Made by a program: the position numbers and the translations under genes
Assembly: GCA_018052995.1 (NCBI GenBank)
Contig: JAGPMK010000009.1
Coordinates: forward strand, 1-45,428
Origin: Syntrophorhabdales bacterium
Lineage (GTDB): Bacteria > Desulfobacterota > Syntrophorhabdia > Syntrophorhabdales > Syntrophorhabdaceae
DNA: 45,428 nt
Direction of reading: 5' to 3'
The notes under the pieces: model-generated
What the model saw: the letters and a program-made list of their open reading frames with translations, nothing else
What the model was told of the DNA's origin: nothing
Database searches by the model: none
In this document: in pieces, positions 12,007-41,377 of the stretch
Layout: each line of letters starts with the position of its first letter
Position numbering within the stretch: position 1 is the first letter of the stretch

Positions 12007-12080
12007 TCCCCGGTAGCTCAATCGGCAGTAGCGGCTGGCTGTTAACCAGTAGGTTGCAGGTTCGAGTCCTGCCCGGGGAG
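12007..12080 (+). tRNA. tRNA-Asn (anticodon GUU)
   Basis: The cloverleaf closes. The acceptor TCCCCGG pairs with CCGGGGA and the discriminator is G. The anticodon stem GCTGG/CCAGT encloses loop CTGTTAA with GTT at the anticodon. The T arm is GCAGG-TTCGAGT-CCTGC. The D arm is slightly irregular (GCTC with an enlarged loop). No CCA is encoded. A T-rich run follows at once. GUU anticodons carry queuosine at G34 in most bacteria. Confidence 0.95.
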
Positions 12081-15039: not shown

Positions 15040-15111
15040 CTGGGGTGGGAGGATTCGAACCTCCGAATGCAGGCTCCAAAGGCCTGTGTCTTACCGCTTG
15101 ACGACACCCCA
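15040..15111 (-). tRNA. tRNA-Gln (anticodon UUG)
   Basis: Read on the minus strand, TGGGGTG pairs with CACCCCA, with discriminator G. The anticodon stem CAGGC/GCCTG holds loop CTTTGGA, giving TTG at 34-36. The T arm is GGAGG-TTCGAAT-CCTCC. The gene is 72 bases without an encoded CCA, like the E. coli tRNA-Gln shape. It lies 23 bases after spoVG and 28 bases before prs, on the same strand, so it is likely cut from a shared transcript. Confidence 0.96.
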
Positions 15112-30869: not shown

Positions 30870-31209
30870 AAGGTTAAGGGTCCAGGATCAGCTAAGGGAG
30901 GAGGTCTCTCAGATACTTTTTAAGGATATTAAAGACCCTGGCCTTGGTTTTGTAACAATACTGGAGGTAAAACTCACCGAAGACCTTAAGATTGCAAAGA
31001 TTTTTTGTTCTATCTATGGTGGTGATGATGAAAAAACAAGGTCAATGGCAGCGCTTAATAGGTCTAAGGGGTATATAAGGTTTCTTTTAGGACAGAGGGT
31101 AAAGCTAAGATATACACCTGATATAATCTTTATTCTCGATGATACATATGAAAAGGCGGCAAGGATAGAGGAGATTTTAAGAAGGGAGAGGGATGCTAAG
31201 ACAGATTAA
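30859..31209 (+). CDS. rbfA: Ribosome-binding factor A
   Basis: 116 residues of the KH-like RbfA fold: MRYRRLRVQDQLREEVSQIL, DPGLGFVTILEVKLTEDLKI, and DDTYEKAARIEEILRRER at the end. It binds the 30S platform during late maturation of 16S rRNA. ATG 30859 lies within the ylxP end, directly behind TTTTGGGG with almost no spacing, so translation probably depends on coupling. Confidence 0.95.
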   Translation: MRYRRLRVQDQLREEVSQILFKDIKDPGLGFVTILEVKLTEDLKIAKIFCSIYGGDDEKTRSMAALNRSKGYIRFLLGQRVKLRYTPDIIFILDDTYEKAARIEEILRRERDAKTD

Positions 31210-32149
31210 AAGCAGGGTAGAGCAAGGGAGCAGGTTTCTTATAACCACCCATATTGACCTTGATGGTGATGCTGTTGGGTCATGTTTTTCCCTCTACTGG
31301 GCACTTAAATCCCTTGAAAAAGAGGTGTTTGTATATTTCAGGGATAAGATACCATATAAATATAGATTTCTCCCAGGCCCAGCAGGGCATCAGTTAATCT
31401 TAAATACCTTGCCGGTGGACGAATATGATAATGTTTTTGTCCTTGACTGCGGTGACCTTTACAGGGTGGGAGAGGACTATGAAGGGCTTAAGAAGAGTAA
31501 TGCCTTTATAGTAAATATAGACCATCATAATACAAACAGCATTTTTGGAGATATAAATTTTGTAGATGAAAATGCCTCATCTACAGCAGAGATAATGTAT
31601 GATCTATTTAGATATCTTGTAATCGATATATCGCATGAGATGGCAGTAAATATTTACACTGCCGTATTAACAGATACCGGTTCATTTAGGTATGATAATA
31701 CAACCAATAAGGCATTCAGTATATGCGAGCACATGACAAGGATAGGTGTTAGGCCCTCTTTTGTTGCTGAAAAGGTATATGAGAGTCATCCTAAAGAGAG
31801 GTTTCTACTTCTTGGTAAGGTTTTGGATACCATCGAGATATGTAGCAATGGGAGGGTGGTAATAGCATACATAACAAGGGAGATGTTTCAGGCTACAGGT
31901 GCTACAGAGGAGCATTCAGATGGGTTTGTAGAATATTTAAAAGAGATTGAGGGGATAGATATAGCGGTTCTTATAAGGCAGTTGGACAACGGAAGATGTA
32001 AACTCAGCATGAGGTCTAAGGATGGGGCAGATGTAGCGGGTATCTGTAGATTATTCGGCGGCGGGGGACATAAAAAGGCAGCAGGATGTTATGTCGATGG
32101 GGATATAGAGCAGGTAAAAAAAAGATTTTTAGAGGTCATAAATATTTAG
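31193..32149 (+). CDS. nrnA: DHH-family oligoribonuclease/pAp phosphatase
   Basis: 318 residues. DHH domain motifs are THIDLDGDAVGS near the N-terminus and the signature NIDHHNTN (about 109). The DHHA1 domain has RLFGGGGHKKAAGCYVDG. NrnA degrades nano-RNAs and often dephosphorylates pAp. It sits between rbfA and truB as in many bacteria and overlaps rbfA by 17 bases, behind GGGAGAGGG. Confidence 0.92.
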   Translation: MLRQIKSRVEQGSRFLITTHIDLDGDAVGSCFSLYWALKSLEKEVFVYFRDKIPYKYRFLPGPAGHQLILNTLPVDEYDNVFVLDCGDLYRVGEDYEGLKKSNAFIVNIDHHNTNSIFGDINFVDENASSTAEIMYDLFRYLVIDISHEMAVNIYTAVLTDTGSFRYDNTTNKAFSICEHMTRIGVRPSFVAEKVYESHPKERFLLLGKVLDTIEICSNGRVVIAYITREMFQATGATEEHSDGFVEYLKEIEGIDIAVLIRQLDNGRCKLSMRSKDGADVAGICRLFGGGGHKKAAGCYVDGDIEQVKKRFLEVINI

Positions 32150-37126: not shown

Positions 37127-37987
37127 ATGGACCTTTATCATGGTCTTGATATCTTTATCAGCTATATGACCGCTGAGAGGGGTGCATCACCCCACACAAT
37201 AGATGCCTACAACAGAGATATAATGCAATTTTTAAGGTATCTTGAATCAAATGCCATTAGTATGCCCACAAAAAAGGATATAGAGGGGTTTATAGGCCTC
37301 TTAAGGGGACAGGGCAAAAAGGCAAGGAGTATATTAAGGGTCATATCTGCACTTAAGGGCTATTTTAACTTCCTTGTCCTTGAGGGTCATATTAAAGAAA
37401 GCCCTCTTGAGGATATAGAGACACCGAGATTCAAGGCGCCTATACCAGAGGTATTAAGTCAGGAAGAGATCGTCGAGCTTATAGAGGCAACAGATGATGG
37501 AGGGTCGTCGCTTAGGGATAGGACCATGCTTGAGCTTATGTACGCCACAGGCCTGAGGGTTTCAGAGCTCATCCAGCTAAAAAAGAGTGATGTGAACCTT
37601 GAGGCTGGTTTTTTAATAGCCTTAGGAAAGAGGTCAAAGGAGAGGGTGGTACCCATTGGTTCATACTCAAGGGATGCGATAAGACAATACCTTGAGTCAG
37701 AGAGACCAAGGGGCGTCTATCTTTTTCCTAATAAAAGGGGCAATAGGCTCACAAGGCAGGCAGTATGGAAGATAATAAGGAAATATGCCAGAAAAATTCA
37801 GAGGTCGCATATCTCACCCCATACAATCAGGCATACCTTTGCTACCCATCTGTTAGAGGGTGGCGCTGATTTAAGGTCTGTTCAATTACTCCTCGGCCAC
37901 GAGGATATAACTACAACACAGATCTATACCCATGTGGATAGTAAAAGGCTTAAGGAGATCCATAAAAAACACCATCCAAGGGGTTAG
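37127..37987 (+). CDS. xerD: Tyrosine recombinase XerD-like
   Basis: 286 residues. A SAM-like N-terminal DNA-binding domain (FISYMTAERGASPHTIDAYN) is followed by the catalytic domain with Arg in TGLRVSEL (about 143), HTIRHTFATH (about 231-240), LLGHEDITTTQIYTHV and the nucleophile Tyr (about 267). The C-terminus KEIHKKHHPRG matches the XerD ending better than XerC. It resolves chromosome dimers at dif with a partner. It sits in a housekeeping run, not next to a phage, so a core Xer protein is favoured over an integrase. Confidence 0.9.
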   Translation: MDLYHGLDIFISYMTAERGASPHTIDAYNRDIMQFLRYLESNAISMPTKKDIEGFIGLLRGQGKKARSILRVISALKGYFNFLVLEGHIKESPLEDIETPRFKAPIPEVLSQEEIVELIEATDDGGSSLRDRTMLELMYATGLRVSELIQLKKSDVNLEAGFLIALGKRSKERVVPIGSYSRDAIRQYLESERPRGVYLFPNKRGNRLTRQAVWKIIRKYARKIQRSHISPHTIRHTFATHLLEGGADLRSVQLLLGHEDITTTQIYTHVDSKRLKEIHKKHHPRG

Positions 37988-37995
37988 CCTGTTAA

Positions 37996-40647
37996 ATGAA
38001 GGTTATCACATCCCACAATAACGCAGATTTCGATTCCCTATCATCAATGATGGCTGCAAAGAAGCTATATCCCGATGCGGTTCTTGTCTTCCCTGGTTCC
38101 CAGGAAAAGACATTAAGGGATTTTCTTATCCACTCCACTCTATACATCTTTGATATAGAAAAGACAAAAAATATTGACTGCAATTCCATTGATACACTTA
38201 TAATTGTCGATACAAGACAGAGGTCAAGGATAGGGGATTTTGCCAAGATAGTAGATAGAAAGGATCTAAAGATACATATCTTTGACCATCACCCAGATAC
38301 ACAGGATGATATAAAAGGTGATATAGAGGCCATAAGAAAGACAGGGGCTACTGCCACAATCCTCATATCCATGCTGAAAGAGAAGGGTATAAGTATTACC
38401 CCGGAAGAGGCTACTGTAATGATGCTTGGTATATACGAGGAGACAGGTTGTTTTCTTTTTCCATCCACAACTATAGATGACTTTAATGCTGCATCTTTTC
38501 TCCTTTCCCAGGGTGCCAACGTAAATCTTGTATCAGACCTCCTTGTAAAAGAGTTAACGTCTGAGCAGGTATTTCTTTTGAATGAGCTCATCAATAATGC
38601 ATCTGTTGTGAATATCAATGGTATAGATGTTGTTATTGCTGAGGCGAGCATTGAGAGGTATGTTGGTGATCTTGCAGTAATTGTCCATAAATACAGGGAT
38701 ATGGAAAACCTAAACGTCATATTTGCATTGTTCAGACTTGAAGATAGGGTCTACATAATAGGCAGAAGTAGGGTACCTGAGGTGGATGTAGGCTATATTC
38801 TTTCCCTATTAGGGGGAGGTGGGCACAAAGAGGCTGCATCATGCACTATTAAAGATATGACAATGCCTGAGGTAAAGGACAGACTCATTGAACATCTTAA
38901 GCACAACGTAAAGCCTCTTTTTACAGCAAAGGATATAATGTTTTTTCCTGTTAAGTTTGTGGATGCAGAGGCACCTATAAGCGAGGCAAAAAATACAATG
39001 GTTAAATACAATATAAATGCCCTTCCAGTACTCAAGGATGAAAGGGTTGTTGGTGTGATAACGAGGCAGATTGTGGAAAAGGCAGTATTTCACAGACTCG
39101 AGGATATCCCTGTAAAGGAGTATATGTCTACAGACTCTATATTTGCAAGGCCTGAGGACTCTGTTGAGAAGGTGAAGGATATGCTTATAGGCAGCAACCA
39201 GAGGTTTGTCCCTGTTACAGAGAACGGAAGACTAGTGGGTGCCATAACAAGGACAGATCTTTTGAGGGTTCTGGAGGATGAGGTATCAAAGACCGTTGTT
39301 AATAAGATAGAGACCCATGGCCTTTATGCAAAGAAGAAGAATGTTAAGAATCTTATGAAGGAGAGGCTAGATAGTGACACATTGGAAAAGCTGATAGCTA
39401 TAGGTAATCTAGCTGATGAGATGGGCTATCATGCCTATCTTGTAGGTGGGTTTGTAAGAGACCTGCTCTTGAGGATATATAATTATGATATAGATATTGT
39501 GATAGAGGGAGACGGTTTAAGGTTTGCCAATGAACTTGCGGTAAGATACCACGCAAAAATGAGACAGCATCAGGAATTTGAGACCGCAAAGGTCATATAT
39601 AGTGATGGTTTTAAGGTTGATATAGCCACAGCAAGGCTTGAATACTATAAGTCTCCTGCTGCCCTCCCTACGGTTGAACATAGCTCTCTTAAGCTGGATC
39701 TGCAGCGCAGGGATTTCACCATAAACACCCTCGCCATCTCTCTAAATAAGAATACCTTTGGACATCTGATAGATTTTTTCGGTGCCCAGAGGGATATAAA
39801 GGAAAGGGTAATAAGGGTCCTGCACAGTTTAAGCTTTGTCGAAGACCCCACAAGGGTCTTCAGGGCTATAAGATTTGAGCACAGATTTGATTTCCAGATA
39901 GGCAAACACACACTGAACCTTATAAAAAATGCCGCAAGGATGGGTTTCTTTTCTAAGATTAAAGGCAGGAGGTTATGGACTGAATTATCGCTCATACTCC
40001 TTGAAGAATCACCCGAAAAGATACTAAAAAGACTCCAGGAGCTCGATCTCCTGAAATTTATATATCCTGACCTTATTTTTGATAAGGAGAAGGAGCGGCT
40101 GTTTAGTCAGATGCAGACTGTATTTAGATGGTATGAGCTTCTATATAGTGGAAGGACATGTGACAGACTTGGTTTTTATATCCTAGGATTAACAGATCAG
40201 CTAAAACAGGATAAGGTTATAGATTTCTGCAATAGGCTGGAGTTGAAGGAGTCATTGAAAAGAAAGACCATAGAGAATACTGAGAAGATAAGGGATACAC
40301 TTATAAGATTTGCTGTTGGTCTTACAGCTATGCCAAAGAGTATGATTTATAGAACCCTTGACCAGATAACTGATGAGGCAAAGCTATTTATTATGGCAAA
40401 GACAAAATCAGAGGAGATAAAGAGGCTTATATCTAACTATATAACCTATATAGATTCTTATAAACCCATAGTGACTGGGGCTGACCTGAAGAATATGGGC
40501 TTGCAAGAGGGTCCTTTATATAAGGAGATACTGGACAGACTCAGAGATGCTAAGATTGATAATAACCTCAAGACAAGAGAGGATGAGCTGGGGTTTGTGA
40601 AAAATTATATAGAACACCTACCTGGCAATGGCATTACAAAAAGATAG
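37996..40647 (+). CDS. DHH-CBS-CBS-tRNA nucleotidyltransferase/poly(A) polymerase fusion
   Basis: 883 residues. The DHH/DHHA1 phosphoesterase spans about 1-300 (SHNNADFDSLSS, IFDHHPD at about 96, LLGGGGHKEAASC at about 272). Two CBS domains follow at about 311-430 (TAKDIMFFPVKF; VKEYMSTDSIF). The class II nucleotidyltransferase head begins about 480 with LVGGFVRDLLL and the metal pair in YDIDIVIEG, then RRDFTINTLA and the tRNA-binding helical tail. Proteins of this build are known from Aquifex and deltaproteobacteria, where some only add the A of CCA. The DHH part may act as nuclease and CBS may sense adenylates; both are inference. Confidence 0.92.
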   Translation: MKVITSHNNADFDSLSSMMAAKKLYPDAVLVFPGSQEKTLRDFLIHSTLYIFDIEKTKNIDCNSIDTLIIVDTRQRSRIGDFAKIVDRKDLKIHIFDHHPDTQDDIKGDIEAIRKTGATATILISMLKEKGISITPEEATVMMLGIYEETGCFLFPSTTIDDFNAASFLLSQGANVNLVSDLLVKELTSEQVFLLNELINNASVVNINGIDVVIAEASIERYVGDLAVIVHKYRDMENLNVIFALFRLEDRVYIIGRSRVPEVDVGYILSLLGGGGHKEAASCTIKDMTMPEVKDRLIEHLKHNVKPLFTAKDIMFFPVKFVDAEAPISEAKNTMVKYNINALPVLKDERVVGVITRQIVEKAVFHRLEDIPVKEYMSTDSIFARPEDSVEKVKDMLIGSNQRFVPVTENGRLVGAITRTDLLRVLEDEVSKTVVNKIETHGLYAKKKNVKNLMKERLDSDTLEKLIAIGNLADEMGYHAYLVGGFVRDLLLRIYNYDIDIVIEGDGLRFANELAVRYHAKMRQHQEFETAKVIYSDGFKVDIATARLEYYKSPAALPTVEHSSLKLDLQRRDFTINTLAISLNKNTFGHLIDFFGAQRDIKERVIRVLHSLSFVEDPTRVFRAIRFEHRFDFQIGKHTLNLIKNAARMGFFSKIKGRRLWTELSLILLEESPEKILKRLQELDLLKFIYPDLIFDKEKERLFSQMQTVFRWYELLYSGRTCDRLGFYILGLTDQLKQDKVIDFCNRLELKESLKRKTIENTEKIRDTLIRFAVGLTAMPKSMIYRTLDQITDEAKLFIMAKTKSEEIKRLISNYITYIDSYKPIVTGADLKNMGLQEGPLYKEILDRLRDAKIDNNLKTREDELGFVKNYIEHLPGNGITKR

Positions 40648-40681: not shown

Positions 40682-41377
40682 ATGGAGTTTTTAGTTCCTG
40701 CCCTTGAGGTTAAGATTGAATGTTATGAGGGCCCCCTTGCTGTTCTTATTAACCTCATAAAAAAGAACAGGGTGAGTGTCTGGGATATACCCCTTGCACC
40801 CATTACAGAGAGGTTTCTCCAATATGTTGAGCTTGTCCAGGAGATGAGACTAAAGATCGCTGAGGATTTTATCGAGGTCGCCTCACTTTTGATATATATA
40901 AAATCAAAAATGCTCCTTCCTAAGGCCATTCCAGAGGATGAGACAGACCCCAGGGATGAGCTCATCGAAAGGATTATAGAATATGAAAGGCTAAAAAATA
41001 TGGTGGATGCCATCAATAATCTTCCCTTATTGAACAGGGATATCTTTGCAAGAGAGGGAAGGTCTATACAGGGTAAGGATGACTATAACCTTTTAAGTCT
41101 CTGCAATGCTTTTTTTGATTTGATAAGGAACAAAGAGGATAGATATATTGTGGTAAGGGAGCTTAAGCCGACCCTTGAGGAGAAACTCAGCATGTTGAAG
41201 GATATCCTTGATTCAAAGGGGTTCTTTGAATGGGGGGATGGAGATGAGATGGAGCATTCTGAAAAGGTGGTAACAATACTGGGGATGCTTGAGCTTACAA
41301 AGATCAATATGGCAACTATTCACCAGAGAAGGCCTTTCAGCAGGATTATTATAAAAAGAAGAGACGGAGGCATATAA
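40682..41377 (+). CDS. scpA: Segregation and condensation protein A
   Basis: 231 residues, kleisin. The N-terminus CYEGPLAVLINLIKKNRVSV is followed by DIPLAPITERFLQYVE and ASLLIYIKSKMLLPKA; the C-terminal winged helix includes VVTILGMLELTKIN. It closes the SMC ring for chromosome segregation. TTGGAG lies ahead of ATG 40682. The usual partner scpB is not next to it: sppA follows by one base. Confidence 0.94.
   Translation: MEFLVPALEVKIECYEGPLAVLINLIKKNRVSVWDIPLAPITERFLQYVELVQEMRLKIAEDFIEVASLLIYIKSKMLLPKAIPEDETDPRDELIERIIEYERLKNMVDAINNLPLLNRDIFAREGRSIQGKDDYNLLSLCNAFFDLIRNKEDRYIVVRELKPTLEEKLSMLKDILDSKGFFEWGDGDEMEHSEKVVTILGMLELTKINMATIHQRRPFSRIIIKRRDGGI

Follow-up and report, generated by a model that had tools for sequence, protein, structure and literature searches.

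We analyzed contig JAGPMK010000009.1 of a Syntrophorhabdales bacterium (NCBI GenBank assembly GCA_018052995.1), a stretch of 45,428 nucleotides that we refer to as the window. An open reading frame (ORF) that begins with ATG encodes a single protein of 883 residues with the domain order DHH-DHHA1-CBS-CBS-nucleotidyltransferase. We argue below that CCA addition in this bacterium is probably split between two enzymes, with this fusion adding the A. The gene and its parts are the following.

37996-40647 (+): fusion, putative A-adding tRNA nucleotidyltransferase (ORF, family matches, AlphaFold2 model)
38002-38433 (+): DHH domain, residues 3-146, with ligand positions H7, D11, D13, D72 and D97-H98-H99 (Pfam, 7.8e-11)
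38440-38442 (+): codon of E149, the metal-ligand position of motif IV (alignment of 73 fusions)
38662-38910 (+): DHHA1 domain, residues 223-305, with GGGGH at 273-277 (Pfam, 1.6e-7)
38926-39279 (+): CBS pair, about residues 311-428 (Pfam; two stretches, 1.9e-24, the better one covering residues 373-427)
39433-39816 (+): nucleotidyltransferase head, residues 480-607, with DxD at 498-500, D542 and RRD at 571-573 (Pfam PolyA_pol, 3e-28)
39634-39693 (+): flexible-loop region, about residues 547-566, present (alignment, spacing compared with references)
39841-39855 (+): amino-acid template motif D, E616-D617-x-x-R620 (alignment)
39889-40074 (+): neck and RNA-binding part, residues 632-693 (Pfam PolyA_pol_RNAbd, 1.4e-8)
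40213-40590 (+): body and tail region, residues 740-865 (weak Pfam tRNA_NucTran2_2 match, below the cut-off)

The DHH, DHHA1, CBS, PolyA_pol and PolyA_pol_RNAbd matches passed their Pfam cut-offs, and tRNA_NucTran2_2 failed (22 versus 27 bits). An initial annotation, made from the sequence of the window, had described a DHH phosphoesterase, two CBS domains and a tRNA nucleotidyltransferase in one chain of this length, and the ORF, the Pfam matches and near-full-length relatives confirm this description. Because such relatives (aligned, for example, over residues 1-872) are found in many other genomes, the fusion is no accident of assembly. The closest named ones, at 61-69% identity, come from Deltaproteobacteria UBA7527 and Syntrophus-like drafts. 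The accompanying claim that all motifs are complete holds for the nucleotidyltransferase and for the other DHH ligands, but not for DHH motif IV, which reads E148-E149-T-G in place of the usual Asp. An AlphaFold2 model of the fusion, built with 35 relatives (mean predicted local distance difference test score, pLDDT, 84.9; predicted template modeling score, pTM, 0.56), appears good for the domains, and the arrangement of the halves is uncertain. The top Foldseek matches of this model were the Thermotoga CCA and Aquifex nucleotidyltransferases, followed by the DHH-DHHA1 proteins GdpP, TmPDE, DhhP and NrnA.

The score of 103.2 bits against PF01743 (cut-off 23) places the fusion in the superfamily of class II tRNA nucleotidyltransferases and bacterial poly(A) polymerases (PAPs). 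Residues D498, D500, D542, R571, D573, E616, D617, R620, R659 and E663 were invariant in all 73 aligned fusions. The flexible loop and the template motif, which had been singled out for inspection, are both present: the fusion contains E616-D617-x-x-R620, and its DxD-to-RRD spacing is 73 residues (D498 to R571). The reference spacings are 73 in the Thermotoga maritima CCA enzyme (TmCCA) and 72 in the Aquifex chain 4wby, which we take to be the A-adding chain. NF041569, a model for A-adding enzymes, was matched end to end (fusion residues 1-872 on model positions 1-877 of 880).

A second class II enzyme in the same genome

Whether a second, CC-adding enzyme exists elsewhere in the genome had been posed as the key question, and another class II nucleotidyltransferase was found. 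The host assembly comprises 1.93 Mb in 84 contigs and is 93.7% complete. A PolyA_pol profile search of this genome identified one other gene of the family, on contig C12, and no third one, PAP-like or otherwise. In many relatives, a PAP-like enzyme that bears a signature of the IGRRFRLAH type is present as a third one.

L004:3391-4749 (contig C12): CC-type partner, 452 residues, with HD domain (family matches)

The DxD-to-RRD spacing of the partner is 57 residues, versus 73 in the fusion, and the absent stretch is the flexible-loop site. According to passages of PMC7014341 and PMC3925840, bacterial CC-adding enzymes characteristically have a shorter flexible loop or none. We built a quick tree from 67 nucleotidyltransferase cores, with support from the Shimodaira-Hasegawa-like approximate likelihood ratio test (SH-aLRT) only. 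In this tree, the partner grouped with chain 3wfo (support 91), and the clade of the fusion (support 100) also contained TmCCA, the Aquifex A-adding chain and unfused relatives. Chain 3wfo, presumably the Aquifex CC-adding enzyme, is also the best solved match of the partner (E 1.3e-27). By domain order as well as by tree position, the fusion belongs to the clade of fused A-adding and TmCCA-type enzymes. A PAP identity of the fusion was considered and rejected: the IGRRFRLAH-type letters, which we take to be the PAP I signature, occur in neither the fusion nor the C12 protein sequence, and the fusion is placed elsewhere in the tree.

A covariance model search identified 42 tRNA genes in the host, of which 19 encode the CCA end and 23 do not. 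The latter fraction means that both CC and A have to be added. Two of the genes without an encoded CCA lie in the window:

12007-12080 (+): tRNA-Asn gene, no encoded CCA
15040-15111 (-): tRNA-Gln gene, no encoded CCA

A loop-less second class II enzyme and a need for de novo CCA addition, as expected of a split system, are thus found together in this genome. With a probability of about 0.77, we consider the fusion to be the A-adding half of such a system, with the loop-less C12 enzyme adding CC. The C12 enzyme would add C74 and C75 to tRNAs, and the nucleotidyltransferase half of the fusion would then add A76 with ATP, by means of the EDxxR protein template and the full flexible loop. This two-enzyme route would mature the transcripts of the 23 tRNA genes without CCA and repair worn ends. 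The initial annotation had noted that some members of this fusion family add only A. With a separate loop-less CC-type enzyme in the genome, this likely applies to the fusion as well; the A-only specificity of the fusion and the CC-only specificity of its partner are what we infer.

Two further observations were made on these genes. With the HD domain of the partner, each putative half of the split system is accompanied by a domain of the phosphoesterase type. ARAGORN called a tRNA-Sec (tca) gene on contig C13 (L040:1311-1404), which hints at selenocysteine use.

The enzyme pair across the phylum

We sampled 148 genomes from the phylum, each at least 90% complete. Classes were set by hand from tables, and a match of at least 209 bits to the partner alignment and profile (A2) was counted as strong. 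The fusion was found in 128 genomes and in none of the other 20. Nine of the 128 showed it only in part, and G105 was counted on a fragment of residues 1-236, with no fusion head domain seen there. A second enzyme of the partner type was present in 118 of the 128 fusion-bearing genomes, 102 with a strong A2 match and 16 with short or gapped heads. Small genomes also pair the fusion with a second enzyme, for example G000 and G040 (1.5 Mb).

A strong A2 match alone does not demonstrate that the loop is missing, because genomes without the fusion match A2 too. We therefore considered the head spacing, which was measured for 16 of 21 and 75 of 76 partner candidates, 22 of 27 PAP-like loci and three of four controls. 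Among the strong-A2 genomes, 17 of 102 had no head measurement, and the spacing was 56-66 residues in 82 of the 85 measured. The heads in the other three were longer (G044, 69; G180, 70; G114, 74), with the extra residues apparently ahead of the loop position. Nine of the 16 short or gapped second PF01743 matches measured 51-63, five were printed, and those of G064 and G164 were unreadable by the patterns used. The controls were fusion-less genomes: three had one A2 match each, with a spacing of 69 and the loop present, and the fourth was unmeasurable. The single A2-matching enzyme in these three genomes is probably a full CCA-adder. Altogether, the pairing of fusion and partner across the phylum is strong, although not absolute.

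By eye, some partners look like CCA-type heads minus the loop, and others are of the type of AaS, the Aquifex CC-adding partner (L390-L405; for example G113, G138, G080 and G122). Going by these sequences, loop-less enzymes may have arisen more than once.

Architecture and similarity cannot by themselves decide between A and CCA addition, because TmCCA is nearest to the fusion and the NF041569 score lies below the cut-off; the case rests on the partner. Several observations weigh against an A-adding role. The nearest solved relative of the fusion, by sequence and by fold, is TmCCA, a full CCA-adder (266.5 bits, versus 193.9 bits for 4wby), and TmCCA is also the reference closest to the fusions in the tree (SH-aLRT 88). 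The NF041569 score of 997.7 bits misses the equivalog threshold of 1440; we did not file the fusion in this equivalog and take it to work like the NF041569 enzyme. Among the sequence features tested, none tells an A-only enzyme from a full CCA-adder. The CC clade of the tree held all but one (G100) of the 19 partner-type rows, and passages of PMC3925840 report that grafting a long loop into a CC-adding enzyme did not always yield a CCA-adding enzyme. Ten of the 128 fusion-bearing genomes lack a partner of this type. Four genomes of one family (G154, G105, G176 and G131; L227-L230) have a second enzyme with a spacing of 67-84, which in our view resembles Escherichia coli Cca. In one fusion-bearing genome, the only second enzyme is PAP-like. 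The fusion stands alone in five genomes, including G171, a draft that is 100% complete.

An alternative is that the fusion adds the whole CCA like its T. maritima homologue, with the C12 enzyme as a redundant or specialized helper. TmCCA is not only the closest solved relative but also the top fold match and the nearest tree reference, and the five drafts show the fusion as the sole class II enzyme found. One partner-less draft, G182, lacks CCA in 8 of 10 tRNA genes inspected. However, its apparent lack of a partner could reflect a gap in the draft, since a partner-like match (head spacing unmeasured) was found in both of the other genomes searched from that family. This weakens G182 as evidence for full CCA addition. 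Also, this alternative has to account for a second enzyme, mostly short-headed, in 118 of 128 fusion-bearing genomes, small ones included. We regard it as rather unlikely.

We also inspected tRNA gene ends in other genomes, using the best-scoring tRNAs rather than all of them. In partner-bearing genomes other than the host, CCA was encoded in 29 of 30 tRNA genes (ten genomes, three genes each) and in 15 of 15 in G059. G096, with unfused A-type and CC-type enzymes, encodes it in 14 of 15. In G171, with the fusion alone, CCA was encoded in all 30 tRNA genes examined, of 40 found. The fractions in other partner-less drafts were 10 of 10 (G076), 7 of 10 (G181) and 2 of 10 (G182). The idea of reading the specificity of the fusion from the tRNA ends of partner-less genomes was rejected, since partner-bearing genomes encode CCA nearly as often.

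The DHH and CBS domains

In the DHH-DHHA1 unit, H7, D11, D13, D72, D97, H98, H99, R257 and GGGH 274-277 were invariant in all 73 aligned fusions, and G273 and R259 were kept in 70 and 71 of them, respectively. Motif IV reads E-E-T-G in 20 fusions and E-D-T-G in 53, and position 149 is the only column of residues 1-305 that separates the Glu and Asp sets (85% on each side). All 15 rows from the order to which the window belongs have Glu, as do 5 of the 8 from Nitrospirota, with two origins on a quick tree of the 73 rows (72 differ; SH-aLRT only). A scan for related loci found 80, of which 55 gave an ORF and 25 were dropped; it used the pattern GIYE[ED]TG, so that these rows can show only E or D at position 149. 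The 18 A1 rows, collected without the pattern, also have only E or D there.

Position 149 aligns with D154 of TmPDE, and chains described as inactive D80N D154N in their PDB title carry a mutation there. By motif, it corresponds to D156 of Bacillus subtilis NrnA, a metal-1 ligand according to passages of PMC5593865. PyapApase is described in passages of PMC8268124 as inactivated by mutation of conserved ligand residues, including those of motif IV. Of the features of DHH-DHHA1 phosphodiesterases, the fusion thus has the ligands of motifs I-III and GGGH, and has E149 in place of the motif IV Asp. With this Glu in place, the DHH part may or may not be an active nuclease. An inorganic pyrophosphatase identity was rejected, since DHHA1 is present and pyrophosphatase models score below NrnA.

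The role of the metal ligand in these relatives, together with a Glu acquired in two changes and present in all rows from the order of the window, suggests that the DHH unit may have lost catalysis in this lineage and now serve as a nucleotide sensor or scaffold. This would concern the N-terminal unit only and is compatible with A addition by the other half. However, Asp to Glu is a conservative exchange, and all other ligands are invariant in the 20 Glu rows, unlike what decay would leave. Such a loss is unlikely, although it deserves to be kept in mind. A little less likely still, the twice-changed unit, with its other ligands kept, may have an altered metal, substrate or rate, and might control A76 addition as an adenylate sensor that hydrolyses slowly or not at all.

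The DHH-CBS unit is not confined to the fusion. Separate DHH-CBS frames of 433-470 residues with no nucleotidyltransferase part were found in at least 13 of the 148 genomes. Three of these contain DHH, DHHA1 and CBS only according to Pfam, and nine printed sequences all have the motif IV Asp. Such DHH-DHHA1-CBS-CBS genes, at L247-L258 (for example L247:4040-5341 and L253:4001-5302), indicate that the module is viable without a nucleotidyltransferase, and make a role restricted to tRNA ends less likely. The neighbors of two of these loci, L247 and L253, gave no functional clue.

It had been proposed that the DHH part removes damaged nucleotides from tRNA 3' ends, which the nucleotidyltransferase half then restores. 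In its favor, both halves are conserved together, and H277 of GGGGH and the DHH ligands outside motif IV are kept in 73 of 73 fusions. On the other hand, the substrates of the solved DHH-DHHA1 relatives are mostly short (di)nucleotides, the DHH-CBS genes also stand alone, E149 may weaken catalysis, and the model with its pTM of 0.56 provides no reliable arrangement of the two halves. Moreover, passages of a 2021 paper (PMC8208693) report that the accessory domains of the Thermotoga enzyme are not needed for CCA addition. The trimming proposal is not supported by these data, and we consider it very improbable.

In the CBS pair, 67 of 73 fusions carry the Asp of the ribose-binding pattern in CBS2 (D421), and the equivalent position of CBS1 is Asp in 1 of 73. 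D421 was placed using G-x-x-T-x-x-D, which we take to be the pattern of the ribose-binding Asp. Adenylate sensing, suggested in the initial annotation, is plausible on this basis, with one candidate adenine-nucleotide site, in CBS2 only. If CCA addition is split and the fusion adds the A, its N-terminal DHH-DHHA1-CBS part would form a module of its own, of the phosphodiesterase kind represented by NrnA, GdpP and TmPDE. All activity of this module is predicted: it would perhaps act on short adenine-containing nucleotides, and perhaps be tuned by an adenine nucleotide in CBS2.

Genes in the surroundings of the fusion are the following.

31193-32149 (+): NrnA-like separate DHH protein, motif IV T-D-T-G (NCBIfam)
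37127-37987 (+): xerD, adjoining the fusion upstream (family match)
40682-41377 (+): scpA-like gene, adjoining the fusion downstream (match below the cut-off)

Before the fusion, the run includes the NrnA-like gene, a gene judged by eye to be pnp-like, dut and xerD, and the scpA-like gene follows the fusion. The separate DHH protein (nrnA) expected in the same run is therefore present; its top NCBIfam match is NrnA, although the score of 91.5 bits lies below the cut-off of 350. Among the fusion relatives at the 80 related loci, 70 had sufficient flanking sequence downstream, and 49 of these have an scpA-like gene there; of the 72 with sufficient sequence upstream, 31 have an xer-like gene.

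Comparison with known systems

The fusion architecture is already in print, as had been noted: passages of PMC8208693 describe native Nrn and CBS domains on TmCCA, an enzyme that completes the whole CCA end (PMC3925840). PMC8208693 also mentions deltaproteobacteria with separate CC- and A-adding enzymes and no PAP, and refers to experimental work on Geobacter sulfurreducens nucleotidyltransferases (Bralley et al. 2009). Again going by passages, PMC12709177 mentions DHH-DHHA1 in tRNA nucleotidyltransferases, and PMC9757072 mentions that CCA-adding enzymes of Bacilli form a DHH-DHHA1 cluster. The titles, abstract beginnings and passages covered, with few subscription papers among them, contained no test of the DHH-CBS part in fusions and no report of a motif IV Glu. 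The arrangement is largely ordinary, and the oddity is the motif IV Glu in the DHH part. The wider question is why a phosphodiesterase-CBS unit sits on an enzyme that finishes tRNA ends, and the D149E change that arose twice offers natural variants for addressing it.

Among characterized enzymes, the fusion resembles the Geobacter A-adding type (NF041569, a model that we take to rest on the Geobacter enzyme) in matching a model of the same length end to end and in having a separate CC-adding enzyme beside it. It differs from the G. sulfurreducens case in that a PAP is present there and no PAP gene was found here, in the E149 of its DHH domain, and in missing the NF041569 cut-off. TmCCA is closest by sequence and fold, shares the Nrn and CBS domains and has the same loop spacing of 73, but acts as a single full CCA-adder, whereas the host genome of the fusion holds a second, loop-less enzyme. 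In the latter respect, the fusion is like the Aquifex A-adding enzyme AaL, which falls into the same clade, has the full loop and has the CC-adding partner AaS in its genome, although chain 4wby is more distant from the fusion in sequence. The Aquifex CC-adding enzyme (3wfo) is the counterpart of the C12 partner, as best solved match and clade mate, and not of the fusion. With NrnA, GdpP, TmPDE and DhhP, the fusion shares the DHH-DHHA1 fold, motifs I-III and GGGH; it differs from all four in the Glu that replaces the motif IV Asp, and in the attachment of this unit to CBS domains and a nucleotidyltransferase.

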